Shown in pieces: positions 4,016 to 64,000 of a DNA stretch of 64,000 nt. Position 1 is the first letter of the stretch. Every line of letters begins with the position of its first letter. This DNA is from Cornus controversa. Taxonomy: Eukaryota > Streptophyta > Magnoliopsida > Cornales > Cornaceae. The position numbers and the translations under genes were made by a program. The stretch is taken from contig CM048845.1 in the NCBI GenBank assembly GCA_026545225.1, forward strand, positions 55,652,033 through 55,716,032, given 5' to 3'. Under the pieces are notes generated by a model, which saw only the letters and a list, made by a program, of their open reading frames with translations, was not told the origin of the DNA and searched no databases.

Positions 4016-6560
4016 TAGACAATATTTTGGACGACGTTGTTACTCAAGAATTGTCCTTGTAGAGGGGTGAATAAGGAATATAAGCAAATAATAGAACTTT
4101 TTCGGTTTAGACTTGTTTTGACAAAAGTAATCTTGTTTGGACTTTTGTCAAACACTTGATGAGCTTATGTATTCAACAAGTGAGAATGAAAATTGTAAAT
4201 ACACTATCTATAAGACTCTTATGCACTTAAATGATCTAGTGGATACAATAAGTGAAAGTGCTCATGTAAGTGCAACAGATCATGCTTGTAGTGTGTGAGA
4301 ATGTTGAATGCACATTTATTAAACACATGGTATGCACCTTGATTGACAAATGAATAATCAAATAAATACTCAATCAATCAACATACCCGAGCATTATTCA
4401 TCTCATCCTCCTCATATGAATTAAAGCGTATAAACTCATAACATTCACATACATATATATATAACATACAAAATTTAAACAAATGAAAAACTATTAAGTA
4501 AATGAGTTAAGAGTTAGATAAATGCAAACTAAAGAAACGACGGTTTACATGGTTTGGCACCTCCATTGGTCGCTTACATCCATGCCTCAAGAGCACCTCT
4601 TGAGGAGTCCAATACTATAGGGCTTCCCTTAAGGGTGGAAAACAAACCGTTAAAATTCTCAAGTGCACCAATTGGTCTTCTTTGCTCCGTGAGCACCTCA
4701 TTGAGATTTTCTTGCCAAGCTCATGACTTGGGCTTCTTTTCTATTTTGATAGCTAAGAGGTAATCATTTCTCACTCTAATGAGTGGAGAGCACTACCCAA
4801 CCATTCTCCTTATAAGGTAGAGAATAAATAAACCTTTACAAACTTTCATGAAGCTATCCCTTTTTTGCCAAGAGGACCTCTTGGATTTTCTTTCAAATAG
4901 GATGAATAATAATTTGAGTACAATAGAGAATATTCCTCAATGGATAGATATACAAGTAATAGCTTCATATCCTAGAGTTACAAATGAAGTATTCAAGAGA
5001 AAGCTCAACTCTAAGTTTGCAAGATGAACCACAATGAATGATATGTAAGATAAGGCCCGATGGTGGTTCCTACAAGAGATGTTCTATGAAGTAGAATGCA
5101 AATATTTGTTTTCAAGAGTTTGTCAAGTGTATGCCCATGAGTAGGTTTCTCTCTATCTCTCTTCTCTACCCAAAATTGTTAATACAATGGGTATATATAA
5201 GCTTTTGAATGAATATAACAGTTTGAGACCAGAACTAGCTATTAGATTCAGATTCATATTCCTATAGAAGTAGTCGACTTATGGAAAAAGTAGTCAACTT
5301 ATAAGTTGACTATTCATTTAGGAACAATCGGCTAATTTAATTTTGCTTTGCAGATTCTGAGGCTCTATAATAATAAGTCGAGTGGTCAAACTGATTAGGT
5401 TGACTTATAAGTAGACTTATTAAAGGAATAATTCGATTGTTTTGTCGTGCTCCAAAAGCCTAAGACGTTCTGTAATAATAAGTTGACTATTTATAGGAAA
5501 TAAGTTGATAATTCAAGTATGCTTCAACAACCTCACTTATTTATATTGAAAACATTCAAGTAAATCTCTCAATTTATATTTTGATTTACTTTAAGGTATT
5601 CAATGTAAATAAGAAAAATACCCCCATTTGGATTCAATAAAAATAGTTTCAAAATCAAATTTCAAGTAAGTCAAAATTTGATTTTTCAGTTTTAGTACAA
5701 AACAAATTTTTACAATTTTAAGATAAAAATTCATTGTGCAATTTGAATGACCAAATCAAGTCATTTGGAATTGAGAAAATTCAAACCATCATGATAAATA
5801 ATGGAGTATAATTACCGGGACTTTTTATATCAAGATTCATTAAAAATCTCATATTTATATTTTTGCCCCTAGAATCCTAACACTTAGCCAAATTTCTGTG
5901 CTAAGTTCCTGAAATAGCAACTGTGTATGACAAGACTTTATAAAGTGAGTCAATTGAGTTCAAAACCAAAGTCAATGTATCTAAGAACCATGAATGATAT
6001 TTTCTAATTCAAGTATAGGTTTTAGAATTTGTTTACTCAAGAATTAAGTTCCTTTAAAGCTAATCATAAGCTTAAATTAACCCAATCCCAACAAAGGCTT
6101 TCAAGATGATTAAATGAATTTCATGGCCTAATTTTAAGTGTCCAAAGAACCATGATATAATATGAATAATATGCATTGGTCTTATGGTCTATTAGGTTAA
6201 TAGATGAGTTTTCAAAAGAAGTTCCTTCAAAAATAACCTAAATTAAATACTAAAACTCACCCAAGACTAGCCTACCCACATCTTTGATCTTCAGATCTTT
6301 AAGCTCTTGGATTCTTTCATTATGTGACTTGGATTCATTTCAATTTTGTCATTGATCTTGATTATTGATTTTTGAGTTCTATGATCACGTGGCTTCATAT
6401 ATCTTCTTGTAAGTCCCTTTGAAGTCCAAAGCCTTTAAGATACTTGAGATAATATGATACCTTGTAAAATGCACACTCAACAAAACTTATTAAATCTACA
6501 CTATAATAGATTGTTATCATCAAAATTACCCAATTAACCTTGGATTGAATCCTTGAGGTC
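4016..6560 (-). mobile_element. Copia-type (Sirevirus-like) LTR remnant
   Basis: On the minus strand the region runs from a segment with 'attttgatgataacaatc' (about 6510-6530) to 'ccctctacaaggacaattct' (about 4045-4065), wording that resembles LTRs of Sirevirus-type Copia elements. It also holds the phrase 'tttacatggtttggcacctc' seen in related LTRs. No coding domain is visible. It appears cut at its 3' side by the Gypsy LTR at 4-4015. The outer (right) limit is approximate and the family call is by resemblance only. Confidence 0.42.
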
Positions 6561-26945: not shown

Positions 26946-27461
26946 TGTTGGGAATTTAATCCTCTTTTCGTTCGGCACATCGGAAGCATATAAGAAAATG
27001 ATAATCAAACACATCCTTGCACAACACAATATTTTACATGGTTCACCCAACTTTAGGGTTACATCCATGGAGAAAGATATTTCACTATATTAAGAAGAGA
27101 ATATACAATACACAGAAAACATGCCTACCACACACACTCTTTCACTCTCTATTGGCATCTTCCTCCCGAAATTACATATACCATCTCCTCTCCTCACAAT
27201 ACTCACCAAACCCCTTACATCTTTCCTCTTTCTCTATTTTTCCCTTTAACCCTACATCTATTTATAGAGTCTCCAAAACCAATTCCTTCTTGAATAAGGA
27301 TTATCATACCTTGTCTAACAAGAAGTTACCAATTTAATCATAACTCTAAAATAGATGTATACAACTTTCTACCCAAGTCTTCAGCCTTGCTCCATAAGTC
27401 TTTAGGCTTTCAAAATGGAAAATGAAACTGCCTCAAGTGAATTTGAGCAACAAACCCAACA
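26946..27461 (-). repeat. 3' LTR of the ndhH-carrying element
   Basis: 516 bp, TG...CA ends, aligned along its length with the copy at 28561-29056. The adjacent inner flank is the purine tract on the minus strand (27462-27476). Confidence 0.88.
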
Positions 27462-27505
27462 ATCTCCACCTTGGCCCAAATTCCATGAATGTGCAATCCC
27501 ATTGT

Positions 27506-28139
27506 CTTTATGAATATCCCATTGTATTCTGGAAGCGTGTAGCATTGGTCCTGATAAACCCCAATTTATTGCTTTTTCTCTGCTAATAATGCCCACCCCT
27601 TCGACTTGTTCTAAAAAAATGGGATTACTTATAATAAGCTTTTGATATTCAGCAACCCCTGTTAAAAAATAATCGCCAAAATCCAAACATTTATCTATCC
27701 AACCATGAGGTAGATCAGCGGCTACTCCTTCAATATGAAAATAATTATGCATCATTCGTATACTGGTAGCAGCTTCGAATAGGTTATATATTAATTCTCT
27801 TTCTCAAAAAATATAGAAAAAGGTGATCTACGCTCCAATATCAACCATGAAAGGGCCAAGCCATAACAAATGAGAAGATATACGACTTAACTCCAACATA
27901 ATTACTCTGATATAGCTAGCCCTTTTAGGTACTTGTATATTTCCTAACTGCTCTGGTGCATTTACGGTTATTACTTTTGTGAACATAGTAGCTAAATAAT
28001 CCCAACGTGTTACATAAGGCAAATATTGTATAATTGTTTAGTTTTTCGTAATCTTTTCCATCCCTCTGTGTACATAACCCAAGATTGGTTCACAATCAAT
28101 AATATCTTCACCATTTAGAGTAACGATGAGTCAAAGAAC
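27506..28139 (-). pseudogene. ndhH: Plastid ndhH fragment (NDH-1 subunit H), about codons 25-235
   Basis: On the minus strand the segment follows chloroplast ndhH from near codon 25 to near codon 235: LRLIVTL-like start, [32 protein letters not shown] (from 28022), [63 protein letters not shown]. The parent protein is the 49-kDa-type subunit of the plastid NAD(P)H dehydrogenase-like complex on thylakoids. The match is too close to NdhH for mitochondrial Nad7. The piece lacks both ends of the gene, carries several interruptions and cannot encode NdhH. It begins and ends abruptly between the primer-binding site and purine tract of the retroelement, so it is cargo of that element or a later insertion into it. 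Confidence 0.9.
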
Positions 28140-41673: not shown

Positions 41674-44600
41674 ATCTCCCTCCTTGGCAATTTCGTGACA
41701 AAACCAACCTAAACAATTATAACCTAACCACTGAAAAAATTAAATTACAATATGTCCCAAATACAAAAAATATAACTTGAAGATCTCAGAGTATCATAAG
41801 CAAGCTTTCAAACTTTGTATGTAATGTTTGCCAAAAACCTGTAAAATTTGCACATTATGCAAACAACACTACCTGTAAAAGCTTAATAAAAAAAAATATA
41901 ATGATATAAAAATAAACTCCAAACTCCCTCTTAATCATATAACCAATGAAGTATACTGTCTCCCATATCTCCCCCTTTATCACATACACAATTCATCTCC
42001 TCCTTTTTAGAACAAATTGACAAAGTAAGACCAATGAAAACAAGAGAGAACCATTTAACACATGATTAAGTGAGATAAAAACATAACCTTTATTCAAACA
42101 TATCACATATGTTCCAAAATGATGAAGAGTTACACATAAGCATATCATAAAAACCATAAAAAGCATAGAACATCACATGTCTAAGCAAATAAAAATATAG
42201 AACATAACAAGTTTAACCAACAAAGACTAGACATAACATGTATGAGCAATAAATAAAACTAACTACTCAATGTCTAGCAAAACAAACAACTAGGTCTAAA
42301 CCACTAACACTTAATCCTCATCTTCCTCATCATCATCATCAGTTCCAGAAACTAAATATCAACATCTAAAAAAAAGATATCCTTAGACATGTAACTCCAT
42401 ATATTAAAATTTGCATCAAAGTTCACAAATGTATGATCCAAGCACAAGTATGGTATCTATAGAATTAACATGCAACCTAATCAAAAACACCATGTTTAAC
42501 CAAAAATAAACAAGTTAAAGTCATAAACCTAGCAAATAGATGAACTAGTTTGAATCATCAAAGCCTAAAAATTAATTATCATAAGTGATGTAAGAAAATG
42601 AATGATATCCATTAGCAAAGATGCATTAAGTTCTCATAAGGCTCAAATCATTATCCTCTATAGATGGTCTATCAAGATTTGTCCTCAAATATTACAAAAT
42701 CATATCACATGTTAAGATCAAGAATACCAATTACTTGAATCAAATATATATTTCCATAAAAAAATGTCATCCAAATCATATAAAGACTCTCAAACGTTGT
42801 CCTAAATAAATTCAATTCTTTCTTCTTCACTGGTAAAAGCACTTCTCTTAGCTCTTAGATATCTCCATTAGAGATGCAATGAATGAAAGCATAAACAAGG
42901 GCACAAGCTCCATTAAAGAACCCCATCAAACATTTGGAGATCAAGATTTGAAACAAAATTTTTTTTTTGAGCACAACATGTTTGAATCAATCATTCCAAA
43001 TCAACCTAAATCCTCCAAAGATCAATCCCTTCCACCAGTTCAACTCAAAATCAATAACAAACATCAATCAATTTGATGAAGATTAAGTAGCAAAAGGTAT
43101 GTTAAGAGTCTTGGCAAAGTGAGGGAAAAGAGGAGAAAAGTGCACACAAGGAGAAGGTAAGCACAAAATGAACACGATGCACACATGCAAACTCTAAAAG
43201 CTCTGGCCGAGCCTTGCTGGACTGGTCCAGCTTGTCCCTTGGACCAGTTCAGCTAGGTAAAATTGGTTTGTTGACCAAGTTTAACCAGATTTGCAATTTT
43301 TCAAAAAAATGCGTAAAATTCTCAAAAAAATCTTAAAAATCTAAAAAAAAGAAAATCTTTTTGAATATTTATTTATGTGAAAATAAAAAATATATAATAA
43401 TCATATAGTCATTAAAACCAATTTTTCACATAAAATAATAATGAGTTCTAAAATTTTTGAAAATTTTTTAAAAAATTCATAAATGCACAATTTTAAAACT
43501 CATAAATTTGACAACAAAATTCATACTTAATTTCATGATCATGGCACAATTTTCAATACAAAACTATTTATAAAAATTTTAAAATTCATTTAACAAATCC
43601 ACGTGTGTGTGTGCAATCCAACATTGTCAAAAATTAATCAAATTCATTTGATCCATCTTCTAAAACACATTGGATAATAAGTAAATAAAACCACACATGA
43701 TCAAATATTTTTCATTGAATTTCATTTTTTTTCTTTCTAAAACAGTGGCTTTCATTCTTACAGGTAGCCATCTATTTCCTCAAAACAACTTCTTTAAAAA
43801 GATATCTCATTGGAGATTTATGTCGTAGTAGTAGCTTCGAACAAATCCTGAAGGTAGCATTTTCCTTTTTGTTTTAGATTTTCAGCAATTATTTTCAATT
43901 TTTTTTCATGCTGAATAAAGATAGAATCTTTCCTTTTCATTTTTCATTAATCATTTAAGCCTTCAATGCTACTCATACAATATACTCTAGTCAACTTCAC
44001 ATTAGTTTTCAATCAATTCTCTTAGAGTTGGACTAGTACACAAATTGTATGGACTCAAAAGATTAACTTCTAAAAATAAATAAACATAGCACATTAGTCA
44101 TCAATGCTTAGATCATAAACTTAAGTACTTCATCCATTGATAAATTAAGTGTCTCAATTATGTATTCACAAATCAAAGTGAACTTAAACAGAAACATAGA
44201 GAATTCACATTATTTCATAAAAAAAAAATATGATTTTTACATTCACATGATTATCATAAAAATAAACAAATCTTAACCTAATCTAAATGATATGGTCCAA
44301 TGAAAATAAATAATGAACATAAGTTCAGTCCATGACCACAAAAGTCCTAATGACCTCAGTTAGGGGGTTTTTGCATCCAAAGACCTATTAGGAGTAAATT
44401 TCATGGTATCAACAGGCACGAACTTCTCCAAATCTTCCTTTCTCATACAAATTGTTTTAACATACAATCTATCAAGAAAATATTGTGGAGAAACATAAAC
44501 ATTTTTTTTCTTATTTAAATTCTTTTTAGCTTGAGAATTTTTGGAGTTATTCCAATTATATGACTTTTTAGCATAAGCCATATTCTTAACAAAAGAATTA

Positions 44601-44823
44601 TGCACATGCAAATCAGAATTAGAATGTTTTCTCTTTTTATAACAATAGTATTGATTATATCCATTCTTACCACAAAAAGTACAATGAAGCATATTGCGCA
44701 CAATATTAGCATACATAGACTCAACTTGAAGCTTAGATTTGGGTGCAAACAAATTCAAATTCTTGGGTTTAACAAAAATAATTTTACCCTTAGATGATGA
44801 CTGACGAATGTAGAATAATGGAT
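41674..44823 (-). mobile_element. Internal remnant of the Sirevirus-like element
   Basis: AT-rich sequence running from the purine tract back to a gag-like frame at 44360-44758. No protease, integrase or reverse transcriptase is recognised, so most of pol is missing. It ends where the tandem array begins, which suggests that the array's founder entered or joined this element. Confidence 0.5.
44360..44758 (-). pseudogene. Copia gag fragment with zinc-knuckle-like motif
   Basis: A 132-codon minus-strand frame holds CTFCGKNGYNQYYCYKKRK, the layout of the CCHC zinc knuckle in Copia gag, followed by basic and Asn/Lys-rich sequence. In the family this knuckle binds the element's RNA in the virus-like particle. 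The frame is a fragment of a fossil element. Confidence 0.65.
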
Positions 44824-45973
44824 GTTTGTCGTTGCTTGTCTACACTTCGTACAAAAAATAATAAAACCTGCAAAAACTCTACTAAAAATTGTATAGTAAT
44901 AAGCAGGGTCGAACCACTCTCAAGTGAGATTTCGAATGAGCTCAAATTCACACACTAATTTATGGAATGAAAATTATTTTTTTAAAAACATTTTTTATTT
45001 TGGAATTATAATGAATAAATGAAACTATAATAATAAAATAAATCTTAAGGGAAGGGAATCCACCACCATGAATCCACATAAATAAATTTTCTAATATTCT
45101 TATCTAGTTTTTTTCTCCAATAATCAATACACTTCACCAATCCAATTAGAACTTAAAAAGATGAAGGAAAATATGGAATAAAAAAGAATGACTTGATTAT
45201 ATATAAGAGAGACATTCATTTACTTAATCTGATGCACATTGGCTAGGTAAATAGAGGTAGGCATTCTTCGAATTACCATTATTTGGCAAACACGAAGAAT
45301 CCTCCCTCTAATTTTAGAAAATAAAAATCCAGAATAGAAGAGTAGAAGAATGCTCTTGGGAGGAAAAATTAGAAAAGAAAATAAAGAACTTACTTATATT
45401 TCATCATAGTGGCTTCATTACTCCCTTGAGAGGTGTGTTTACAAGAAAAGAAAATGAATACAAAAAAATATTTACAACTACACTTTATTTTTTTCTACAA
45501 TTTCTAACTCCCTTCACCATCTCCTAAGACCCCCTATTTATAGAGTTAGAGGGGAATGGTTTAGGTGGGAAAAATTTAAAATACAAAATTCAAAATACAA
45601 ATTTGAAATACAAAATTCAAAATTCAAAAACAAAAATTCAAAATACAAAATTTTGAATTTAAATATCTAATATTTGATCTCCATATCTTTAATTTGAATT
45701 CTGGACTGCAGACGTAAAAAGTATTTTGCAAAGTTTTGAACTTGAGACCTCTTGTGAAGTAGATTGCATAGAATACCATCTCTTCTACAATTCTTCTGAT
45801 GTTTATCTTTGGCTATATAAATCCTTTTTAGGCCTTTTCTGCTGCTTTTCTTCTTATTTGGAAATCAACCCCTATAAAACACAAAATGCAAAGATAAGAA
45901 TATTTAAATAAAGTAAAAGAGTAATTAAAGACTTATTTTGATATATAAAATAACATGTTTTGTGCACTTATCA
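44824..45973 (-). repeat. LTR of array unit 1 (representative)
   Basis: On the minus strand the LTR runs from TGATAAGTGCAC at 45973 to CAACGACAAAC at 44824. Near its 3' end it carries 'gagtggttcgaccctgctta', a phrase of Gypsy LTRs. It contains a short reiteration of 'aattcaaaatacaaa' at about 45580-45660. Equivalent copies: 48670-49819, 52516-53665, 56362-57511, 60208-61357. Whether the final AAC belongs to the LTR is uncertain. Confidence 0.72.
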
Positions 45974-48669
45974 AATTACCCCCAAACGAGCTTTTGCTAG
46001 TCCTCTAGCAAATACAAGCAAAAGATATTAGAGCACAAAACTGCTACTTTTATTTAACTCCTAACTAAAGATGTGCCACTTTCGCAGGCTGTTTCGATTG
46101 CATTTACCATATGCAATAAGGCCTTAAACCCTTAGGTTACCCCTAGTGGACGAGCTATAGCCTCGTGAGGGTTTCAATAATGATACCCACAAACATAAAA
46201 AAATGGTAATTAACACTCAAAGATTTTTTTTTCTATTAATGGGTATAAATCAAGAATAACTCAATCATTCTACTTTAGTGCGAAATAAAAAATTAAAAGA
46301 AAAGATTAAATACTATTCAAAAGTTAAAAATTTTCATTACTATTCTTGACTCAGAGTGTGTGTGTGAATAGCCACCAATAATATACTTCTCAATTTTAAA
46401 GCAAATGCATTTTAGATTTTCTTAGAAAATTAGCTTTGATTTCAAATCTCACTTATGATATTTCACTCAAAATTGAACACTAAGAGATTGGCTAATTTTG
46501 CACTCAAGTATATGTGAGTAGAATAATGTAGAACAAATGCAAATTATCTCACATATTTTCAACAAAGAACGAATTTTTCAAGAAAATACATTGGTCTCAT
46601 GAAAGGAATATCAAATATTAAGAATTTATACCACACAACAATATACTCAGTCATGTCCATATCCGAACTATACTATCCTTAAGATCAAAAAGGACTTTTA
46701 TTAGGATGTAACTTTAGGTAAAAGGAAGATAAAAAAAAGTGATAATGATAATGGTAAGGTGTATTCGAGAATGTTTGGGAAGAACTAACTCACTTAGAGC
46801 ATATTACTTTCAACTTTTTCTTCCAAAATTTTGTCAATTGGATACTTTCTATTTCACTTCTTTTTATATACACTTCTCAAAATCTCATCAACAATTATAC
46901 TCCCTCCTTTTTTTTCTTTTTTCTTTTTTCTTCTCTTTTTTTTTTCTTCACCCTCTTGTACATTGATCACATCCATTCTCGGAAACCTAAAAATAGTTAT
47001 AAAAGAAAGGCTAGACCAAAAAGCTTCACTGATTATCACATTCATTCTCGAAAAACCGTAACAAAAAATATGGTTATAAAAGAAAGAATGGGCAAAAAGT
47101 TCAACTGGTTAACAAGTGGTAATTCATAACTAAGAAAAAAATTTGAAAGGCTCAAATAATGAAAGATGGCCAAAAATCATTTCTGAAGGATATGTATAGT
47201 TCTTCAACATACATGAGCTTAAAAAACAAATTATGTGGCATAATATGGTGAATTCTTAATATCTGACCAAAAGAATGAAATAATGAGACTAATCAACAAA
47301 ATTATGTGGATTTCAAGAAAAAATAGAGTAATTAGCATATAACCCTCAAAATAAAAAGAATGGTACAATACCTCACTGGGTTAAATCTCCACGTTTATTC
47401 GTCAAATCTTTAACATGCAATCACTTATCAATTTCGAATCGTATTACGGGGCTTTAGTGAATTTTTTTTTCTTCTGAGTTTTAGAAATTCATGAAATTGT
47501 TCTAACTGAAAGATAGGATAAAATCTTAACTTTTATGAACTTATTAATGCACTAAAGGTTAAAGATTTTATTTTTAAAATTTATACACATTTAATATAAA
47601 AAAAATCAAATCATAGTGTGAAAATTACCATTATCACAAAACATTTTTCAAAAAAATTACAAATTCAACGCTTTTTCTGAAAATTTAGAAATTTAATGTC
47701 ATACCCCCAAACCTAAACTCAATAGTGTCCTCAATGTTGGACAAAATAACGATTAAGCACAAATAGAAGGTTGAAAGAATATTACCTTAATCAGAATTAA
47801 TTGATTTACTTTAACTTTTCATTAAACAAAAATGAAGCATTAGTAATCACATGAAAAGTTCAATACTATGCATGAAAAAATGCAATTTTTGTTTCTTATT
47901 TTTTTCAACAAATAAAAAATAAATAAATAAAATTACAACTCCTACAATTTTTGTTTTTTTGTTTATTAAAGTAACTCGAGGATTACCAGTTAAGGTCTGC
48001 CAACAACACAACCAGGAAAGTTCCCAGGAAAGTGTGGAGAGGCGCTTGGCCTGCTTAATGACGGTACGTCCACACTCCTTAGACAGAACTTTCCTAAGCA
48101 TTGTGAAGTTGGAAGGTGCTCACTGGAGTTACCAAGAGTTAGCTCTACTTTTATAAATATTTTTAAATAATAAAAAGAGCATTACTACAAAAATCCTAAA
48201 TTAAAATTCACAAAAAAATGTTAATTTAAAGATGTACAAACAAAATAAGTAATAAAAATAAAAATAAAAAAATGAGTGAGTGTGTGGTCTTTCTTCTTCT
48301 TTTTTTTTTTTATAAAAAAAAAGAACAAAAAATAAAAGAAAAAAAATGAAGAAAGTGTGACCTTAGGGATATTTCTAAGTTATTTTATCCTAGAGTTCGC
48401 ATGTGAAAGTTATCAACCTAAAAAAAAAACTATGTTTTCTTAATCTAAAAAGAAAAGAAAAATGATGTAAAAGAATTAGGTACTTACCTGGATGACAGCT
48501 ATTGTTCCTCTTCTAAGAATGTTTGATGGTGGCATCAACAGAAGCAATTCATCATAAGAACCTGCCATGGCAATTTTTTTTTTTCATTATTTTCTTCAAA
48601 TAAAAATAAAAATAAAAAAAACTAAAAAAATAAAATAAAAAATAAAAGAATAGGAGTAAGGGAAGGAAA
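45974..48669 (-). mobile_element. Internal region of array unit 1 (representative)
   Basis: From the LTR end at 48670 the minus strand reads through a T-rich stretch to a short frame at 48568-48488 (MAGSYDELLLLMPPSNILRR, then seven more residues) that ends exactly at CAG|GTAAGT, a consensus 5' splice site. Further on is a segment with 'aagcgcctctccacac' and 'ctgggaactttcctgg' (about 47990-48060), resembling the post-pol spacer of Tat/Athila elements. It ends at the purine tract GGGGGTAATT (45974-45983). No enzymatic domain is seen. The same layout recurs every 3,846 bp. Confidence 0.6.
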
Positions 48670-51600
48670 GTTTGTCGTTGCTTGTCTACACTTCGTACAA
48701 AAAATAATAAAACCTGCAAAAACTCTACTAAAAATTGTATAGTAATAAGCAGGGTCGAACCACTCTCAAGTGAGATTTCGAATGAGCTCAAATTCACACA
48801 CTAATTTATGGAATGAAAATTATTTTTTTAAAAACATTTTTTATTTTGGAATTATAATGAATAAATGAAACTATAATAATAAAATAAATCTTAAGGGAAG
48901 GGAATCCACCACCATGAATCCACATAAATAAATTTTCTAATATTCTTATCTAGTTTTTTTCTCCAATAATCAATACACTTCACCAATCCAATTAGAACTT
49001 AAAAAGATGAAGGAAAATATGGAATAAAAAAGAATGACTTGATTATATATAAGAGAGACATTCATTTACTTAATCTGATGCACATTGGCTAGGTAAATAG
49101 AGGTAGGCATTCTTCGAATTACCATTATTTGGCAAACACGAAGAATCCTCCCTCTAATTTTAGAAAATAAAAATCCAGAATAGAAGAGTAGAAGAATGCT
49201 CTTGGGAGGAAAAATTAGAAAAGAAAATAAAGAACTTACTTATATTTCATCATAGTGGCTTCATTACTCCCTTGAGAGGTGTGTTTACAAGAAAAGAAAA
49301 TGAATACAAAAAAATATTTACAACTACACTTTATTTTTTTCTACAATTTCTAACTCCCTTCACCATCCCCTAAGACCCCCTATTTATAGAGTTAGAGGGG
49401 AATGGTTTAGGTGGGAAAAATTTAAAATACAAAATTCAAAATACAAATTTGAAATACAAAATTCAAAATTCAAAAACAAAAATTCAAAATACAAAATTTT
49501 GAATTTAAATATCTAATATTTGATCTCCATATCTTTAATTTGAATTCTGGACTGCAGACGTAAAAAGTATTTTGCAAAGTTTTGAACTTGAGACCTCTTG
49601 TGAAGTAGATTGCATAGAATACCATCTCTTCTACAATTCTTCTGATGTTTATCTTTGGCTATATAAATCCTTTTTAGGCCTTTTCTGCTGCTTTTCTTCT
49701 TATTTGGAAATCAACCCCTATAAAACACAAAATGCAAAGATAAGAATATTTAAATAAAGTAAAAGAGTAATTAAAGACTTATTTTGATATATAAAATAAC
49801 ATGTTTTGTGCACTTATCAAATTACCCCCAAACGAGCTTTTGCTAGTCCTCTAGCAAATACAAGCAAAAGATATTAGAGCACAAAACTGCTACTTTTATT
49901 TAACTCCTAACTAAAGATGTGCCACTTTCGCAGGCTGTTTCGATTGCATTTACCATATGCAATAAGGCCTTAAACCCTTAGGTTACCCCTAGTGGACGAG
50001 CTATAGCCTCGTGAGGGTTTCAATAATGATACCCACAAACATAAAAAAATGGTAATTAACACTCAAAGATTTTTTTTTCTATTAATGGGTATAAATCAAG
50101 AATAACTCAATCATTCTACTTTAGTGCGAAATAAAAAATTAAAAGAAAAGATTAAATACTATTCAAAAGTTAAAAATTTTCATTACTATTCTTGACTCAG
50201 AGTGTGTGTGTGAATAGCCACCAATAATATACTTCTCAATTTTAAAGCAAATGCATTTTAGATTTTCTTAGAAAATTAGCTTTGATTTCAAATCTCACTT
50301 ATGATATTTCACTCAAAATTGAACACTAAGAGATTGGCTAATTTTGCACTCAAGTATATGTGAGTAGAATAATGTAGAACAAATGCAAATTATCTCACAT
50401 ATTTTCAACAAAGAACGAATTTTTCAAGAAAATACATTGGTCTCATGAAAGGAATATCAAATATTAAGAATTTATACCACACAACAATATACTCAGTCAT
50501 GTCCATATCCGAACTATACTATCCTTAAGATCAAAAAGGACTTTTATTAGGATGTAACTTTAGGTAAAAGGAAGATAAAAAAAAGTGATAATGATAATGG
50601 TAAGGTGTATTCGAGAATGTTTGGGAAGAACTAACTCACTTAGAGCATATTACTTTCAACTTTTTCTTCCAAAATTTTGTCAATTGGATACTTTCTATTT
50701 CACTTCTTTTTATATACACTTCTCAAAATCTCATCAACAATTATACTCCCTCCTTTTTTTTCTTTTTTCTTTTTTCTTCTCTTTTTTTTTTCTTCACCCT
50801 CTTGTACATTGATCACATCCATTCTCGGAAACCTAAAAATAGTTATAAAAGAAAGGCTAGACCAAAAAGCTTCACTGATTATCACATTCATTCTCGAAAA
50901 ACCGTAACAAAAAATATGGTTATAAAAGAAAGAATGGGCAAAAAGTTCAACTGGTTAACAAGTGGTAATTCATAACTAAGAAAAAAATTTGAAAGGCTCA
51001 AATAATGAAAGATGGCCAAAAATCATTTCTGAAGGATATGTATAGTTCTTCAACATACATGAGCTTAAAAAACAAATTATGTGGCATAATATGGTGAATT
51101 CTTAATATCTGACCAAAAGAATGAAATAATGAGACTAATCAACAAAATTATGTGGATTTCAAGAAAAAATAGAGTAATTAGCATATAACCCTCAAAATAA
51201 AAAGAATGGTACAATACCTCACTGGGTTAAATCTCCACGTTTATTCGTCAAATCTTTAACATGCAATCACTTATCAATTTCGAATCGTATTACGGGGCTT
51301 TAGTGAATTTTTTTTTCTTCTGAGTTTTAGAAATTCATGAAATTGTTCTAACTGAAAGATAGGATAAAATCTTAACTTTTATGAACTTATTAATGCACTA
51401 AAGGTTAAAGATTTTATTTTTAAAATTTATACACATTTAATATAAAAAAAATCAAATCATAGTGTGAAAATTACCATTATCACAAAACATTTTTCAAAAA
51501 AATTACAAATTCAACGCTTTTTCTGAAAATTTAGAAATTTAATGTCATACCCCCAAACCTAAACTCAATAGTGTCCTCAATGTTGGACAAAATAACGATT

Positions 51601-54600
51601 AAGCACAAATAGAAGGTTGAAAGAATATTACCTTAATCAGAATTAATTGATTTACTTTAACTTTTCATTAAACAAAAATGAAGCATTAGTAATCACATGA
51701 AAAGTTCAATACTATGCATGAAAAAATGCAATTTTTGTTTCTTATTTTTTTCAACAAATAAAAAATAAATAAATAAAATTACAACTCCTACAATTTTTGT
51801 TTTTTTGTTTATTAAAGTAACTCGAGGATTACCAGTTAAGGTCTGCCAACAACACAACCAGGAAAGTTCCCAGGAAAGTGTGGAGAGGCGCTTGGCCTGC
51901 TTAATGACGGTACGTCCACACTCCTTAGACAGAACTTTCCTAAGCATTGTGAAGTTGGAAGGTGCTCACTGGAGTTACCAAGAGTTAGCTCTACTTTTAT
52001 AAATATTTTTAAATAATAAAAAGAGCATTACTACAAAAATCCTAAATTAAAATTCACAAAAAAATGTTAATTTAAAGATGTACAAACAAAATAAGTAATA
52101 AAAATAAAAATAAAAAAATGAGTGAGTGTGTGGTCTTTCTTCTTCTTTTTTTTTTTTATAAAAAAAAAGAACAAAAAATAAAAGAAAAAAAATGAAGAAA
52201 GTGTGACCTTAGGGATATTTCTAAGTTATTTTATCCTAGAGTTCGCATGTGAAAGTTATCAACCTAAAAAAAAAACTATGTTTTCTTAATCTAAAAAGAA
52301 AAGAAAAATGATGTAAAAGAATTAGGTACTTACCTGGATGACAGCTATTGTTCCTCTTCTAAGAATGTTTGATGGTGGCATCAACAGAAGCAATTCATCA
52401 TAAGAACCTGCCATGGCAATTTTTTTTTTTCATTATTTTCTTCAAATAAAAATAAAAATAAAAAAAACTAAAAAAATAAAATAAAAAATAAAAGAATAGG
52501 AGTAAGGGAAGGAAAGTTTGTCGTTGCTTGTCTACACTTCGTACAAAAAATAATAAAACCTGCAAAAACTCTACTAAAAATTGTATAGTAATAAGCAGGG
52601 TCGAACCACTCTCAAGTGAGATTTCGAATGAGCTCAAATTCACACACTAATTTATGGAATGAAAATTATTTTTTTAAAAACATTTTTTATTTTGGAATTA
52701 TAATGAATAAATGAAACTATAATAATAAAATAAATCTTAAGGGAAGGGAATCCACCACCATGAATCCACATAAATAAATTTTCTAATATTCTTATCTAGT
52801 TTTTTTCTCCAATAATCAATACACTTCACCAATCCAATTAGAACTTAAAAAGATGAAGGAAAATATGGAATAAAAAAGAATGACTTGATTATATATAAGA
52901 GAGACATTCATTTACTTAATCTGATGCACATTGGCTAGGTAAATAGAGGTAGGCATTCTTCGAATTACCATTATTTGGCAAACACGAAGAATCCTCCCTC
53001 TAATTTTAGAAAATAAAAATCCAGAATAGAAGAGTAGAAGAATGCTCTTGGGAGGAAAAATTAGAAAAGAAAATAAAGAACTTACTTATATTTCATCATA
53101 GTGGCTTCATTACTCCCTTGAGAGGTGTGTTTACAAGAAAAGAAAATGAATACAAAAAAATATTTACAACTACACTTTATTTTTTTCTACAATTTCTAAC
53201 TCCCTTCACCATCCCCTAAGACCCCCTATTTATAGAGTTAGAGGGGAATGGTTTAGGTGGGAAAAATTTAAAATACAAAATTCAAAATACAAATTTGAAA
53301 TACAAAATTCAAAATTCAAAAACAAAAATTCAAAATACAAAATTTTGAATTTAAATATCTAATATTTGATCTCCATATCTTTAATTTGAATTCTGGACTG
53401 CAGACGTAAAAAGTATTTTGCAAAGTTTTGAACTTGAGACCTCTTGTGAAGTAGATTGCATAGAATACCATCTCTTCTACAATTCTTCTGATGTTTATCT
53501 TTGGCTATATAAATCCTTTTTAGGCCTTTTCTGCTGCTTTTCTTCTTATTTGGAAATCAACCCCTATAAAACACAAAATGCAAAGATAAGAATATTTAAA
53601 TAAAGTAAAAGAGTAATTAAAGACTTATTTTGATATATAAAATAACATGTTTTGTGCACTTATCAAATTACCCCCAAACGAGCTTTTGCTAGTCCTCTAG
53701 CAAATACAAGCAAAAGATATTAGAGCACAAAACTGCTACTTTTATTTAACTCCTAACTAAAGATGTGCCACTTTCGCAGGCTGTTTCGATTGCATTTACC
53801 ATATGCAATAAGGCCTTAAACCCTTAGGTTACCCCTAGTGGACGAGCTATAGCCTCGTGAGGGTTTCAATAATGATACCCACAAACATAAAAAAATGGTA
53901 ATTAACACTCAAAGATTTTTTTTTCTATTAATGGGTATAAATCAAGAATAACTCAATCATTCTACTTTAGTGCGAAATAAAAAATTAAAAGAAAAGATTA
54001 AATACTATTCAAAAGTTAAAAATTTTCATTACTATTCTTGACTCAGAGTGTGTGTGTGAATAGCCACCAATAATATACTTCTCAATTTTAAAGCAAATGC
54101 ATTTTAGATTTTCTTAGAAAATTAGCTTTGATTTCAAATCTCACTTATGATATTTCACTCAAAATTGAACACTAAGAGATTGGCTAATTTTGCACTCAAG
54201 TATATGTGAGTAGAATAATGTAGAACAAATGCAAATTATCTCACATATTTTCAACAAAGAACGAATTTTTCAAGAAAATACATTGGTCTCATGAAAGGAA
54301 TATCAAATATTAAGAATTTATACCACACAACAATATACTCAGTCATGTCCATATCCGAACTATACTATCCTTAAGATCAAAAAGGACTTTTATTAGGATG
54401 TAACTTTAGGTAAAAGGAAGATAAAAAAAAGTGATAATGATAATGGTAAGGTGTATTCGAGAATGTTTGGGAAGAACTAACTCACTTAGAGCATATTACT
54501 TTCAACTTTTTCTTCCAAAATTTTGTCAATTGGATACTTTCTATTTCACTTCTTTTTATATACACTTCTCAAAATCTCATCAACAATTATACTCCCTCCT

Positions 54601-57600
54601 TTTTTTTCTTTTTTCTTTTTTCTTCTCTTTTTTTTTTCTTCACCCTCTTGTACATTGATCACATCCATTCTCGGAAACCTAAAAATAGTTATAAAAGAAA
54701 GGCTAGACCAAAAAGCTTCACTGATTATCACATTCATTCTCGAAAAACCGTAACAAAAAATATGGTTATAAAAGAAAGAATGGGCAAAAAGTTCAACTGG
54801 TTAACAAGTGGTAATTCATAACTAAGAAAAAAATTTGAAAGGCTCAAATAATGAAAGATGGCCAAAAATCATTTCTGAAGGATATGTATAGTTCTTCAAC
54901 ATACATGAGCTTAAAAAACAAATTATGTGGCATAATATGGTGAATTCTTAATATCTGACCAAAAGAATGAAATAATGAGACTAATCAACAAAATTATGTG
55001 GATTTCAAGAAAAAATAGAGTAATTAGCATATAACCCTCAAAATAAAAAGAATGGTACAATACCTCACTGGGTTAAATCTCCACGTTTATTCGTCAAATC
55101 TTTAACATGCAATCACTTATCAATTTCGAATCGTATTACGGGGCTTTAGTGAATTTTTTTTTCTTCTGAGTTTTAGAAATTCATGAAATTGTTCTAACTG
55201 AAAGATAGGATAAAATCTTAACTTTTATGAACTTATTAATGCACTAAAGGTTAAAGATTTTATTTTTAAAATTTATACACATTTAATATAAAAAAAATCA
55301 AATCATAGTGTGAAAATTACCATTATCACAAAACATTTTTCAAAAAAATTACAAATTCAACGCTTTTTCTGAAAATTTAGAAATTTAATGTCATACCCCC
55401 AAACCTAAACTCAATAGTGTCCTCAATGTTGGACAAAATAACGATTAAGCACAAATAGAAGGTTGAAAGAATATTACCTTAATCAGAATGAATTGATTTA
55501 CTTTAACTTTTCATTAAACAAAAATGAAGCATTAGTAATCACATGAAAAGTTCAATACTATGCATGAAAAAATGCAATTTTTGTTTCTTATTTTTTTCAA
55601 CAAATAAAAAATAAATAAATAAAATTACAACTCCTACAATTTTTGTTTTTTTGTTTATTAAAGTAACTCGAGGATTACCAGTTAAGGTCTGCCAACAACA
55701 CAACCAGGAAAGTTCCCAGGAAAGTGTGGAGAGGCGCTTGGCCTGCTTAATGACGGTACGTCCACACTCCTTAGACAGAACTTTCCTAAGCATTGTGAAG
55801 TTGGAAGGTGCTCACTGGAGTTACCAAGAGTTAGCTCTACTTTTATAAATATTTTTAAATAATAAAAAGAGCATTACTACAAAAATCCTAAATTAAAATT
55901 CACAAAAAAATGTTAATTTAAAGATGTACAAACAAAATAAGTAATAAAAATAAAAATAAAAAAATGAGTGAGTGTGTGGTCTTTCTTCTTCTTTTTTTTT
56001 TTTATAAAAAAAAAGAACAAAAAATAAAAGAAAAAAAATGAAGAAAGTGTGACCTTAGGGATATTTCTAAGTTATTTTATCCTAGAGTTCGCATGTGAAA
56101 GTTATCAACCTAAAAAAAAAACTATGTTTTCTTAATCTAAAAAGAAAAGAAAAATGATGTAAAAGAATTAGGTACTTACCTGGATGACAGCTATTGTTCC
56201 TCTTCTAAGAATGTTTGATGGTGGCATCAACAGAAGCAATTCATCATAAGAACCTGCCATGGCAATTTTTTTTTTTCATTATTTTCTTCAAATAAAAATA
56301 AAAATAAAAAAAACTAAAAAAATAAAATAAAAAATAAAAGAATAGGAGTAAGGGAAGGAAAGTTTGTCGTTGCTTGTCTACACTTCGTACAAAAAATAAT
56401 AAAACCTGCAAAAACTCTACTAAAAATTGTGTAGTAATAAGCAGGGTCGAACCACTCTCAAGTGAGATTTCGAATGAGCTCAAATTCACACACTAATTTA
56501 TGGAATGAAAATTATTTTTTTAAAAACATTTTTTATTTTGGAATTATAATGAATAAATGAAACTATAATAATAAAATAAATCTTAAGGGAAGGGAATCCA
56601 CCACCATGAATCCACATAAATAAATTTTCTAATATTCTTATCTAGTTTTTTTCTCCAATAATCAATACACTTCACCAATCCAATTAGAACTTAAAAAGAT
56701 GAAGGAAAATATGGAATAAAAAAGAATGACTTGATTATATATAAGAGAGACATTCATTTACTTAATCTGATGCACATTGGCTAGGTAAATAGAGGTAGGC
56801 ATTCTTCGAATTACCATTATTTGGCAAACACGAAGAATCCTCCCTCTAATTTTAGAAAATAAAAATCCAGAATAGAAGAGTAGAAGAATGCTCTTGGGAG
56901 GAAAAATTAGAAAAGAAAATAAAGAACTTACTTATATTTCATCATAGTGGCTTCATTACTCCCTTGAGAGGTGTGTTTACAAGAAAAGAAAATGAATACA
57001 AAAAAATATTTACAACTACACTTTATTTTTTTCTACAATTTCTAACTCCCTTCACCATCCCCTAAGACCCCCTATTTATAGAGTTAGAGGGGAATGGTTT
57101 AGGTGGGAAAAATTTAAAATACAAAATTCAAAATACAAATTTGAAATACAAAATTCAAAATTCAAAAACAAAAATTCAAAATACAAAATTTTGAATTTAA
57201 ATATCTAATATTTGATCTCCATATCTTTAATTTGAATTCTGGACTGCAGACGTAAAAAGTATTTTGCAAAGTTTTGAACTTGAGACCTCTTGTGAAGTAG
57301 ATTGCATAGAATACCATCTCTTCTACAATTCTTCTGATGTTTATCTTTGGCTATATAAATCCTTTTTAGGCCTTTTCTGCTGCTTTTCTTCTTATTTGGA
57401 AATCAACCCCTATAAAACACAAAATGCAAAGATAAGAATATTTAAATAAAGTAAAAGAGTAATTAAAGACTTATTTTGATATATAAAATAACATGTTTTG
57501 TGCACTTATCAAATTACCCCCAAACGAGCTTTTGCTAGTCCTCTAGCAAATACAAGCAAAAGATATTAGAGCACAAAACTGCTACTTTTATTTAACTCCT

Positions 57601-60600
57601 AACTAAAGATGTGCCACTTTCGCAGGCTGTTTCGATTGCATTTACCATATGCAATAAGGCCTTAAACCCTTAGGTTACCCCTAGTGGACGAGCTATAGCC
57701 TCGTGAGGGTTTCAATAATGATACCCACAAACATAAAAAAATGGTAATTAACACTCAAAGATTTTTTTTTCTATTAATGGGTATAAATCAAGAATAACTC
57801 AATCATTCTACTTTAGTGCGAAATAAAAAATTAAAAGAAAAGATTAAATACTATTCAAAAGTTAAAAATTTTCATTACTATTCTTGACTCAGAGTGTGTG
57901 TGTGAATAGCCACCAATAATATACTTCTCAATTTTAAAGCAAATGCATTTTAGATTTTCTTAGAAAATTAGCTTTGATTTCAAATCTCACTTATGATATT
58001 TCACTCAAAATTGAACACTAAGAGATTGGCTAATTTTGCACTCAAGTATATGTGAGTAGAATAATGTAGAACAAATGCAAATTATCTCACATATTTTCAA
58101 CAAAGAACGAATTTTTCAAGAAAATACATTGGTCTCATGAAAGGAATATCAAATATTAAGAATTTATACCACACAACAATATACTCAGTCATGTCCATAT
58201 CCGAACTATACTATCCTTAAGATCAAAAAGGACTTTTATTAGGATGTAACTTTAGGTAAAAGGAAGATAAAAAAAAGTGATAATGATAATGGTAAGGTGT
58301 ATTCGAGAATGTTTGGGAAGAACTAACTCACTTAGAGCATATTACTTTCAACTTTTTCTTCCAAAATTTTGTCAATTGGATACTTTCTATTTCACTTCTT
58401 TTTATATACACTTCTCAAAATCTCATCAACAATTATACTCCCTCCTTTTTTTTCTTTTTTCTTTTTTCTTCTCTTTTTTTTTTCTTCACCCTCTTGTACA
58501 TTGATCACATCCATTCTCGGAAACCTAAAAATAGTTATAAAAGAAAGGCTAGACCAAAAAGCTTCACTGATTATCACATTCATTCTCGAAAAACCGTAAC
58601 AAAAAATATGGTTATAAAAGAAAGAATGGGCAAAAAGTTCAACTGGTTAACAAGTGGTAATTCATAACTAAGAAAAAAATTTGAAAGGCTCAAATAATGA
58701 AAGATGGCCAAAAATCATTTCTGAAGGATATGTATAGTTCTTCAACATACATGAGCTTAAAAAACAAATTATGTGGCATAATATGGTGAATTCTTAATAT
58801 CTGACCAAAAGAATGAAATAATGAGACTAATCAACAAAATTATGTGGATTTCAAGAAAAAATAGAGTAATTAGCATATAACCCTCAAAATAAAAAGAATG
58901 GTACAATACCTCACTGGGTTAAATCTCCACGTTTATTCGTCAAATCTTTAACATGCAATCACTTATCAATTTCGAATCGTATTACGGGGCTTTAGTGAAT
59001 TTTTTTTTCTTCTGAGTTTTAGAAATTCATGAAATTGTTCTAACTGAAAGATAGGATAAAATCTTAACTTTTATGAACTTATTAATGCACTAAAGGTTAA
59101 AGATTTTATTTTTAAAATTTATACACATTTAATATAAAAAAAATCAAATCATAGTGTGAAAATTACCATTATCACAAAACATTTTTCAAAAAAATTACAA
59201 ATTCAACGCTTTTTCTGAAAATTTAGAAATTTAATGTCATACCCCCAAACCTAAACTCAATAGTGTCCTCAATGTTGGACAAAATAACGATTAAGCACAA
59301 ATAGAAGGTTGAAAGAATATTACCTTAATCAGAATTAATTGATTTACTTTAACTTTTCATTAAACAAAAATGAAGCATTAGTAATCACATGAAAAGTTCA
59401 ATACTATGCATGAAAAAATGCAATTTTTGTTTCTTATTTTTTTCAACAAATAAAAAATAAATAAATAAAATTACAACTCCTACAATTTTTGTTTTTTTGT
59501 TTATTAAAGTAACTCGAGGATTACCAGTTAAGGTCTGCCAACAACACAACCAGGAAAGTTCCCAGGAAAGTGTGGAGAGGCGCTTGGCCTGCTTAATGAC
59601 GGTACGTCCACACTCCTTAGACAGAACTTTCCTAAGCATTGTGAAGTTGGAAGGTGCTCACTGGAGTTACCAAGAGTTAGCTCTACTTTTATAAATATTT
59701 TTAAATAATAAAAAGAGCATTACTACAAAAATCCTAAATTAAAATTCACAAAAAAATGTTAATTTAAAGATGTACAAACAAAATAAGTAATAAAAATAAA
59801 AATAAAAAAATGAGTGAGTGTGTGGTCTTTCTTCTTCTTTTTTTTTTTTATAAAAAAAAAGAACAAAAAATAAAAGAAAAAAAATGAAGAAAGTGTGACC
59901 TTAGGGATATTTCTAAGTTATTTTATCCTAGAGTTCGCATGTGAAAGTTATCAACCTAAAAAAAAAACTATGTTTTCTTAATCTAAAAAGAAAAGAAAAA
60001 TGATGTAAAAGAATTAGGTACTTACCTGGATGACAGCTATTGTTCCTCTTCTAAGAATGTTTGATGGTGGCATCAACAGAAGCAATTCATCATAAGAACC
60101 TGCCATGGCAATTTTTTTTTTTCATTATTTTCTTCAAATAAAAATAAAAATAAAAAAAACTAAAAAAATAAAATAAAAAATAAAAGAATAGGAGTAAGGG
60201 AAGGAAAGTTTGTCGTTGCTTGTCTACACTTCGTACAAAAAATAATAAAACCTGCAAAAACTCTACTAAAAATTGTATAGTAATAAGCAGGGTCGAACCA
60301 CTCTCAAGTGAGATTTCGAATGAGCTCAAATTCACACACTAATTTATGGAATGAAAATTATTTTTTTAAAAACATTTTTTATTTTGGAATTATAATGAAT
60401 AAATGAAACTATAATAATAAAATAAATCTTAAGGGAAGGGAATCCACCACCATGAATCCACATAAATAAATTTTCTAATATTCTTATCTAGTTTTTTTCT
60501 CCAATAATCAATACACTTCACCAATCCAATTAGAACTTAAAAAGATGAAGGAAAATATGGAATAAAAAAGAATGACTTGATTATATATAAGAGAGACATT

Positions 60601-63600
60601 CATTTACTTAATCTGATGCACATTGGCTAGGTAAATAGAGGTAGGCATTCTTCGAATTACCATTATTTGGCAAACACGAAGAATCCTCCCTCTAATTTTA
60701 GAAAATAAAAATCCAGAATAGAAGAGTAGAAGAATGCTCTTGGGAGGAAAAATTAGAAAAGAAAATAAAGAACTTACTTATATTTCATCATAGTGGCTTC
60801 ATTACTCCCTTGAGAGGTGTGTTTACAAGAAAAGAAAATGAATACAAAAAAATATTTACAACTACACTTTATTTTTTTCTACAATTTCTAACTCCCTTCA
60901 CCATCCCCTAAGACCCCCTATTTATAGAGTTAGAGGGGAATGGTTTAGGTGGGAAAAATTTAAAATACAAAATTCAAAATACAAATTTGAAATACAAAAT
61001 TCAAAATTCAAAAACAAAAATTCAAAATACAAAATTTTGAATTTAAATATCTAATATTTGATCTCCATATCTTTAATTTGAATTCTGGACTGCAGACGTA
61101 AAAAGTATTTTGCAAAGTTTTGAACTTGAGACCTCTTGTGAAGTAGATTGCATAGAATACCATCTCTTCTACAATTCTTCTGATGTTTATCTTTGGCTAT
61201 ATAAATCCTTTTTAGGCCTTTTCTGCTGCTTTTCTTCTTATTTGGAAATCAACCCCTATAAAACACAAAATGCAAAGATAAGAATATTTAAATAAAGTAA
61301 AAGAGTAATTAAAGACTTATTTTGATATATAAAATAACATGTTTTGTGCACTTATCAAATTACCCCCAAACGAGCTTTTGCTAGTCCTCTAGCAAATACA
61401 AGCAAAAGATATTAGAGCACAAAACTGCTACTTTTATTTAACTCCTAACTAAAGATGTGCCACTTTCGCAGGCTGTTTCGATTGCATTTACCATATGCAA
61501 TAAGGCCTTAAACCCTTAGGTTACCCCTAGTGGACGAGCTATAGCCTCGTGAGGGTTTCAATAATGATACCCACAAACATAAAAAAATGGTAATTAACAC
61601 TCAAAGATTTTTTTTTCTATTAATGGGTATAAATCAAGAATAACTCAATCATTCTACTTTAGTGCGAAATAAAAAATTAAAAGAAAAGATTAAATACTAT
61701 TCAAAAGTTAAAAATTTTCATTACTATTCTTGACTCAGAGTGTGTGTGTGAATAGCCACCAATAATATACTTCTCAATTTTAAAGCAAATGCATTTTAGA
61801 TTTTCTTAGAAAATTAGCTTTGATTTCAAATCTCACTTATGATATTTCACTCAAAATTGAACACTAAGAGATTGGCTAATTTTGCACTCAAGTATATGTG
61901 AGTAGAATAATGTAGAACAAATGCAAATTATCTCACATATTTTCAACAAAGAACGAATTTTTCAAGAAAATACATTGGTCTCATGAAAGGAATATCAAAT
62001 ATTAAGAATTTATACCACACAACAATATACTCAGTCATGTCCATATCCGAACTATACTATCCTTAAGATCAAAAAGGACTTTTATTAGGATGTAACTTTA
62101 GGTAAAAGGAAGATAAAAAAAAGTGATAATGATAATGGTAAGGTGTATTCGAGAATGTTTGGGAAGAACTAACTCACTTAGAGCATATTACTTTCAACTT
62201 TTTCTTCCAAAATTTTGTCAATTGGATACTTTCTATTTCACTTCTTTTTATATACACTTCTCAAAATCTCATCAACAATTATACTCCCTCCTTTTTTTTC
62301 TTTTTTCTTTTTTCTTCTCTTTTTTTTTTCTTCACCCTCTTGTACATTGATCACATCCATTCTCGGAAACCTAAAAATAGTTATAAAAGAAAGGCTAGAC
62401 CAAAAAGCTTCACTGATTATCACATTCATTCTCGAAAAACCGTAACAAAAAATATGGTTATAAAAGAAAGAATGGGCAAAAAGTTCAACTGGTTAACAAG
62501 TGGTAATTCATAACTAAGAAAAAAATTTGAAAGGCTCAAATAATGAAAGATGGCCAAAAATCATTTCTGAAGGATATGTATAGTTCTTCAACATACATGA
62601 GCTTAAAAAACAAATTATGTGGCATAATATGGTGAATTCTTAATATCTGACCAAAAGAATGAAATAATGAGACTAATCAACAAAATTATGTGGATTTCAA
62701 GAAAAAATAGAGTAATTAGCATATAACCCTCAAAATAAAAAGAATGGTACAATACCTCACTGGGTTAAATCTCCACGTTTATTCGTCAAATCTTTAACAT
62801 GCAATCACTTATCAATTTCGAATCGTATTACGGGGCTTTAGTGAATTTTTTTTTCTTCTGAGTTTTAGAAATTCATGAAATTGTTCTAACTGAAAGATAG
62901 GATAAAATCTTAACTTTTATGAACTTATTAATGCACTAAAGGTTAAAGATTTTATTTTTAAAATTTATACACATTTAATATAAAAAAAATCAAATCATAG
63001 TGTGAAAATTACCATTATCACAAAACATTTTTCAAAAAAATTACAAATTCAACGCTTTTTCTGAAAATTTAGAAATTTAATGTCATACCCCCAAACCTAA
63101 ACTCAATAGTGTCCTCAATGTTGGACAAAATAACGATTAAGCACAAATAGAAGGTTGAAAGAATATTACCTTAATCAGAATGAATTGATTTACTTTAACT
63201 TTTCATTAAACAAAAATGAAGCATTAGTAATCACATGAAAAGTTCAATACTATGCATGAAAAAATGCAATTTTTGTTTCTTATTTTTTTCAACAAATAAA
63301 AAATAAATAAATAAAATTACAACTCCTACAATTTTTGTTTTTTTGTTTATTAAAGTAACTCGAGGATTACCAGTTAAGGTCTGCCAACAACACAACCAGG
63401 AAAGTTCCCAGGAAAGTGTGGAGAGGCGCTTGGCCTGCTTAATGACGGTACGTCCACACTCCTTAGACAGAACTTTCCTAAGCATTGTGAAGTTGGAAGG
63501 TGCTCACTGGAGTTACCAAGAGTTAGCTCTACTTTTATAAATATTTTTAAATAATAAAAAGAGCATTACTACAAAAATCCTAAATTAAAATTCACAAAAA

Positions 63601-64000
63601 AATGTTAATTTAAAGATGTACAAACAAAATAAGTAATAAAAATAAAAATAAAAAAATGAGTGAGTGTGTGGTCTTTCTTCTTCTTTTTTTTTTTTTATAA
63701 AAAAAAAGAACAAAAAATAAAAGAAAAAAAATGAAGAAAGTGTGACCTTAGGGATATTTCTAAGTTATTTTATCCTAGAGTTCGCATGTGAAAGTTATCA
63801 ACCTAAAAAAAAAACTATGTTTTCTTAATCTAAAAAGAAAAGAAAAATGATGTAAAAGAATTAGGTACTTACCTGGATGACAGCTATTGTTCCTCTTCTA
63901 AGAATGTTTGATGGTGGCATCAACAGAAGCAATTCATCATAAGAACCTGCCATGGCAATTTTTTTTTTTCATTATTTTCTTCAAATAAAAATAAAAATAA

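Follow-up and report, generated by a model that had tools for sequence, protein, structure and literature searches.

A ten-unit tandem array of a non-coding LTR retroelement in Cornus controversa that probably grew by unequal exchange between LTRs after one insertion

The stretch of 64,000 nucleotides of the Cornus controversa genome that was analysed here (the window, C1:55652033-55716032) contains the first part of a tandem array of an LTR retroelement, which is present in the assembly as (LTR-int)10-LTR, occupies 39,631 bp on the minus strand and thus exceeds the earlier estimate of its size. We regard it as probable that this array began as an ordinary insertion, that the 5' LTR/PBS region then suffered a deletion, and that repeated unequal exchange between LTRs followed. 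This view is supported by hybrid LTRs in two other arrays of the family (C2 and C5), by the distribution of the deletion among the LTRs, and by the single target site duplication (TSD). Unequal exchange between LTRs was one of two origins put forward in the initial annotation, and it is the one that our data favour.

The array extends from position 44802 of the window to position 84432 of the extended sequence (C1:55696834-55736464) and runs past the window end. By adding the 30 kb that follow the window we found ten full units and an eleventh LTR that closes the array, which bears out the previous count of at least 4.98 LTR-internal copies as well as the placement of the right end outside the window. 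From left to right, the window comprises LTR1, which is the 3'-terminal LTR (44802-45973, 1172 bp) with an intact U5 end (44802-44823), internal region 1 (45974-48669, 2696 bp), LTR2 (48670-49819), internal region 2 (49820-52515), LTR3 (52516-53665), internal region 3 (53666-56361), LTR4 (56362-57511), internal region 4 (57512-60207), LTR5 (60208-61357) and internal region 5 (61358-64000), all on the minus strand. Internal region 5 is cut by the window end, and units 6-10 and LTR11 lie beyond it, up to extended position 84432. A direct-repeat search of the window detected repeats at a spacing of 3846 (one of 3847) that are 99-100% identical, base-by-base comparison revealed nearly no differences between adjacent units, and the array matches itself over 35,774 columns at 99.9%. 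The length and identity of these repeats exclude a chance origin of the periodicity. The period of 3,846 bp and the high identity were therefore described correctly, but the period is not exact, since three units have lengths of 3847, 3845 and, for the last one, 3847. Likewise, position 44824 had been taken as the start of the array. It is in fact the point from which the inner units match, and as the true start of the LTR it was rejected because the preceding 22 bases (44802-44823) are the intact LTR end that the inner copies lack. With LTRs and internal regions in alternation, an LTR first and last, no extra sequence between units and one TSD at the outer ends, the array fits a shared-LTR tandem LTR retrotransposon, and the view that the LTRs are shared in series is upheld.

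It is unlikely that this structure is an artefact in which an element of one or a few units was expanded during assembly or its copies were miscounted. Such an explanation would be in line with the distribution of indels: unit 10 and LTR11 (extended positions 79437-84432; 4,996 bp) contain one 5-bp deletion and ten single-base indels, most of which fall in homopolymer runs, as compared to only two single-base indels in the remaining 34,635 bp of the array. This suggests that the last unit and the last LTR represent sequence of lower quality, as if used to close the array, and the copy number consequently rests on this assembly. However, the units carry distinct substitutions (internal columns 1826 and 2661; LTR columns 93 and 723), and there are independent arrays with other units, other TSDs and hybrid LTRs.

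The whole array is flanked by the 5-bp sequence ATGAC, with the left copy at 44797-44801 and the right copy, which is invisible within the window, after the last LTR at extended positions 84433-84437. When the two flanks were joined with one ATGAC, they matched uninterrupted sequence at 92-95% identity over 106-120 of the 120 bases (best 40 of 1300 candidates). The single TSD and these empty-site matches indicate that one insertion into a dispersed repeat founded the array. Indeed, one perfect 5-bp TSD per array was observed in all six arrays of which both ends were read (ATGAC, GTATG, CGCTC, CACCT, ATAAC and AATAG). Recombination between neighbouring elements is a known route to complex elements (PMC1950507), but the idea that two or more separate insertions were fused in this way has a negligible probability, as it is contradicted by the ATGAC common to both outer ends, the lack of sequence between units, the near-identity of the units and the empty site.

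In single copies and the other arrays, the full LTR measures about 1.18-1.25 kb and starts with TGATAAGTGC on the element strand. Two bases past its other end, the single copies contain TGGCGCCGTTGCC, a likely PBS. We take this sequence to fit tRNA-Asp, the use of which is presumably a trait of the Athila-type lineage. The LTR alignment also revealed a TATA-like box, CTATAAATAG, within LTR1 (45534-45543, minus strand), which may serve as a promoter and would place the U3/R boundary some 25-35 bases further downstream. The minus strand carries both the PBS-like sequence and the TATA-like box, so that the element is oriented on this strand, with its 3' end at the left of the array; a plus-strand orientation was thereby ruled out. 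No ORF of 120 aa was found in the portion of the array within the window, internal region 1 included. The unit is non-coding and hence non-autonomous, and it is tied to its likely partner by homology of the LTR and the ends only. A candidate for this partner is found at C5:13.934-13.957 Mb, where a gag-pol element of about 11.3 kb forms a two-unit shared-LTR tandem with the TSD AATAG. This element has an open frame of 1850 codons, and Pfam analysis of three adjacent pieces identified gag, protease, RT, RNase H and integrase in the Ty3/gypsy order. This locus is one of several at which two copies of the B-type LTR sequence are spaced about 10 kb apart (best 40 of 1833 candidates). The related gag-pol element of about 11 kb is likely to supply the enzymes for the non-coding units. 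As for the sequence to the left of the array, the flanking ORF (44360-44758; also 44360-44839) has no Pfam match. Elsewhere in the window, the ORF at 27402-27803 on the minus strand matches Pfam Complex1_49kDa (E 2.9e-30); it presumably resembles plastid ndhH, and is probably a fragment of plastid DNA in the nucleus.

All ten LTR/internal junctions of the window array lack about 110 bp relative to the relatives of the element. The first of these inner junctions is located at 48661-48681 on the minus strand, and the same deletion recurs in each unit. The missing stretch, which is bounded by two copies of GTTTG, comprises the last 22 bp of U5, which LTR2 accordingly lacks, the PBS and adjoining internal sequence. 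An exact 21-mer of the deletion junction has ten matches in the genome, all at the window array. The deletion is absent from the 3'-terminal LTR at the left end, in which the U5 end is intact, and is carried by the other 10 of the 11 LTRs. This argues against an integrated concatemer, because deleted units would predict a deleted terminal LTR. The second origin that had been suggested initially, the integration of a concatemer of one-LTR circles, is thus not supported, in view of the one ordinary TSD and the intact U5 end of the 3'-terminal LTR. The R-U5 part of this LTR is 100% identical (rounded) to that of the other ten LTRs of the array, as compared to 98% for the best match elsewhere (best 40 of 1847 candidates), which indicates that the outer and inner LTRs derive from one source. 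The outer LTRs are 99.05% identical over 1155 columns, and one of them lacks 5 bp of U3 in addition to the 22 bp of the U5 end, differences that could be due to later mutation. Deletions in the U5/PBS region were present in two of six arrays (C1, which is the window array, and C2) and in none of the four single elements with compared LTR pairs, and an enrichment in arrays was dismissed as not significant (Fisher p 0.47).

The proposed history would have started with a non-autonomous element, probably mobilised by its 11-kb gag-pol relative, that inserted once into a dispersed repeat, and for this step the 5-bp target duplication and the empty site provide the basis. The 5' LTR/PBS region would next have lost about 110 bp between the 5-bp microhomologies, although the timing of this loss is our deduction. 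A second unit would then have arisen when the two LTRs of sister chromatids or of homologues were misaligned and underwent homologous exchange, and more events of unequal exchange would have led to ten units; the signature of such growth is directly visible in sister arrays of the family. Each exchange would generate an inner LTR with the U5 side of the 5'-terminal LTR and the U3 side of the 3'-terminal LTR. With this composition, the deletion is passed on to every inner junction, and the 3'-terminal LTR retains an intact end.

We therefore compared the inner LTRs with the outer LTRs of their own arrays. Fifteen of 19 informative inner LTRs fitted the predicted 5'-to-3' step and none fitted the reverse, as counted from raw matches rather than derived ones only and with single-base indels dropped; these 19 LTRs are not independent, because inner LTRs within the same array are duplicates of one another. 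By array, the fit was 9 of 9 for C1, 3 of 3 for C3, 2 of 2 for C2 and 1 of 5 for C5, whereas C5b offers no informative site and the one site of C5auto fits both orders. The ten informative single-base indels that were dropped belong to C1 (5), C3 (3), C2 (1) and C5auto (1), and the C1 inner LTRs would misfit if they were kept, owing to indels at columns 52 and 542 that are private to the last LTR. The four C5 inner LTRs that fit neither order by raw matching all carry the ancestral base at column 1050, and they therefore bear no derived variant against the model.

The clearest signature was observed in the C2 array, which derives from a partner-like element through a deletion of 7.26 kb in which the PBS and 185 bp of U5 were lost as well. 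Its inner LTR2 has G at column 357, in common with the 5'-terminal LTR, and at column 682 it has the C of the 3'-terminal LTR; both states are derived when polarised against seven other LTRs. In addition, the 5'-terminal LTR has five private substitutions (one of them, at column 1217, of ambiguous polarity), all within the 473 bp on the U3 side, a part in which the inner LTRs agree with the opposite outer LTR; the probability of such clustering by chance is 3e-7 over the array or 1.4e-5 over the LTRs, for an interval chosen post hoc. Together, the polarised sites and the clustering imply that the array grew from LTRs that had already diverged in place. In the C5 array, LTR4 shares the derived T at column 1050 with the 3'-terminal LTR and lacks the derived A of that LTR at column 91. 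By this one shared-derived site, LTR4 looks like a hybrid between both outer LTRs, as though a three-unit array had doubled. Gene conversion could imitate the hybrids in both C2 and C5. In the window array itself, the deletion is the sole shared-derived marker that links the inner LTRs to one outer LTR, the U3 side being uninformative. Internal column 1826 reads T T G T G G G G G G over the ten units, with the derived T only in units 1, 2 and 4, as if, by this one shared-derived site, a two-unit block had been duplicated.

Another way to obtain a tandem with one TSD is reverse transcription itself, in which minus-strand synthesis would pass (or lack) the PBS, reach the 5' end of the RNA and jump again by R homology, after which the tandem cDNA is integrated. 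Template-switch tandems have previously been proposed (PMC1950507; PMC7215508), and such a process would account for the TSD, for the combination, seen in C1 and C2, of a 3'-terminal LTR that has an intact U5 end with inner units that have no PBS, and for the 3'-terminal LTR of C3 with R-U5 of the other type. This LTR (2866-4104 of the fetched region) has a U3 identical to that of the inner LTRs, and an R-U5 that differs by about 15% from its four sisters and is 99.3% identical to the C5b LTR. Its private differences begin at position 459, the first one shared with C5b being at about 480, which locates the switch about 27-48 bases past the start of the TATA-like box, near where first-strand transfer would put the change. 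Since U3 is the same in both LTR types, gene conversion is a possible cause as well. The C5b LTR combines the same U3 with an R-U5 that is about 15% different, and C8s shows the converse, with a U3 that is about 8% different. The mixed U3/R-U5 types of C3, C5b and C8s are as expected from strand transfer between co-packaged RNAs. The outer LTRs of C5b are identical, as the reverse-transcription model predicts. However, the published template-switch model predicts identical outer LTRs in general, and those of C3 are about 15% apart in R-U5, those of C2 differ by a deletion and several substitutions, and those of the window array by a deletion. Moreover, the C2 inner LTR2 has variants of both local outer LTRs that are unseen in the seven LTRs compared, a cDNA of 39.6 kb would be implausibly long, and no other locus has an R-U5 of more than 98% identity that could have been the strong-stop donor for C1 (best 40 of 1847 candidates). 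Reverse-transcription read-through, which we first favoured for C1, C2 and C3, was thus weakened by the polarised sites and clustered private substitutions of C2, and we now consider it improbable. Repeated unequal exchange, the best explanation overall, accounts for the R-U5 difference in C3 only if gene conversion or an atypical strand transfer is assumed in addition.

One-LTR circles or cDNA that recombined by homology into a resident LTR, once or repeatedly, would yield the same LTR hybrids and keep one TSD, and integrase-independent formation of tandems in yeast is cited in PMC11899658. Nevertheless, the C2 inner LTR variants are those of the outer LTRs of the same locus, so that the circle would have to originate from that locus, and the exact C1 deletion junction was found at no other locus in the genome. 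A contribution of this kind has in our judgement a low probability. The same low standing applies to the idea that loss of the PBS and U5 end itself causes tandems. In that case, a PBS-less RNA would be primed by strong-stop DNA from an intact partner and, without a stop for the minus strand, synthesis would run to the 5' end and jump again by R homology; concatemers with an intact 3'-terminal LTR would integrate and later grow by unequal exchange. This reading is based on C1 and C2, which have such an anatomy among the six arrays that were read at both ends, and on the 3'-terminal R-U5 of partner type in C3.

The family is widespread in the genome assembly that was searched (772 Mb, 61 contigs). 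Matches to a 1-kb internal query were found elsewhere in the genome (best 40 of 460 candidates), and a short PPT-side 24-mer has 194 genome matches. The 46 matches of an exact 70-mer at the PPT-side junction represent 21 single-junction loci and five arrays (with 10, 6, 4, 2 and 3 junctions), and the 69 matches of a second junction type represent 64 single-junction loci and two arrays, at C2:38.09 Mb (3) and C5:13.94 Mb (2). A search of the genome for tandem versus single copies had been advised initially, and it revealed a single junction at 21 of 26 and 64 of 66 loci, respectively, as counted by junction pattern, most of these loci being known from junction matches alone. Loci with at least two junctions made up 5 of 26 in the 70-mer group versus 2 of 66 in the second (GCAAG) group (p 0.018), or 4 of 25 versus 2 of 66 without the window array (p 0.046). 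We did not accept this difference as a reliable signal, because the 70-mer is itself a piece of the window array and the array frequency in its group is therefore biased upward. Six single-copy regions were fetched, and C10s and C6s were left out of the LTR-pair comparison owing to their damaged LTR pairs; the other four have TSDs, an intact PBS and 1-3 LTR differences. The array at C8:17.449-17.461 Mb is truncated at both ends and has no outer LTRs, and its junctions contain an additional copy of about 392 bp of the U5-side LTR end. Among the matches listed (100 of the 194), two PPT-side junctions on the same strand, C2:63481900 and C2:63491698 (both minus), are 9.8 kb apart, possibly as a further two-unit tandem of the long element. 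At C2:90341357 (plus) and C2:90342069 (minus), PBS-LTR junctions of the family lie on opposite strands at a distance of 0.7 kb. Altogether, these data do not support the earlier suggestion of a retroelement that is becoming a satellite, which would form long arrays without boundaries beyond one insertion. The window array has 39.6 kb and is bounded by a TSD, element boundaries are kept, all ten exact matches of the deletion junction are at one locus, and most loci of the family are single-junction loci.

The arrays are young. The outer LTRs of the window array are one substitution apart over 1149 bp, which corresponds to about 33,000 years if a rate of 1.3e-8 per site and year is assumed, and the 0.66% between those of C2 corresponds to about 250,000 years.

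Shared-LTR tandem arrays are already known in plants, and the window array is another such array. In the account of TLI in rice, where they have TSDs, and by pipeline in Arabidopsis, almond and cotton, the mechanism is left open, as is the choice between insertion as a tandem and later recombination (PMC11899658, Mob DNA 2025). Like TLI, which are described as mostly recent, the window array has alternating LTRs and internal regions, an LTR at both ends and a 5-bp TSD. Unlike the two rice loci detailed there, which have two internal regions, it has ten non-coding units; its inner junctions lack the U5 end and PBS, and its sister arrays contain polarised hybrid LTRs. For the maize TRIM Wukong, 15 of 89 intact copies have 3-7 LTRs and unequal crossing over was proposed (PMC4528315), but this is a miniature element with up to 7 LTRs, as opposed to 11 LTRs and a 3.8-kb unit here. 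Cassandra is, like the window array, a non-coding LTR element found in arrays, with at least 12 LTR copies, yet its LTRs bear 5S sequences and its arrays are described from different plant species, including ferns (PMC7215508). The template-switch complexes of Triticeae share the inner LTR and flanking TSD with the window array, but their outer LTRs are presented as a matching pair, whereas only the 5' outer LTR here has the U5/PBS deletion of the inner LTRs (PMC1950507). Ogre-derived satellites are reported to grow from short repeats within the element, which is a different process (PMC7004042).

What this family adds is a set of several young arrays in one genome, with outer LTRs that can be told apart by deletions, by subtype or by substitutions. 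The C2 inner LTR with polarised variants of both outer LTRs opens the question of origin to direct tests and suggests that growth followed insertion, and the sister arrays show array growth unusually clearly. With ten units between outer LTRs that are one substitution apart in about 1.15 kb, the window array illustrates that one insertion can quickly add tens of kilobases to the genome.
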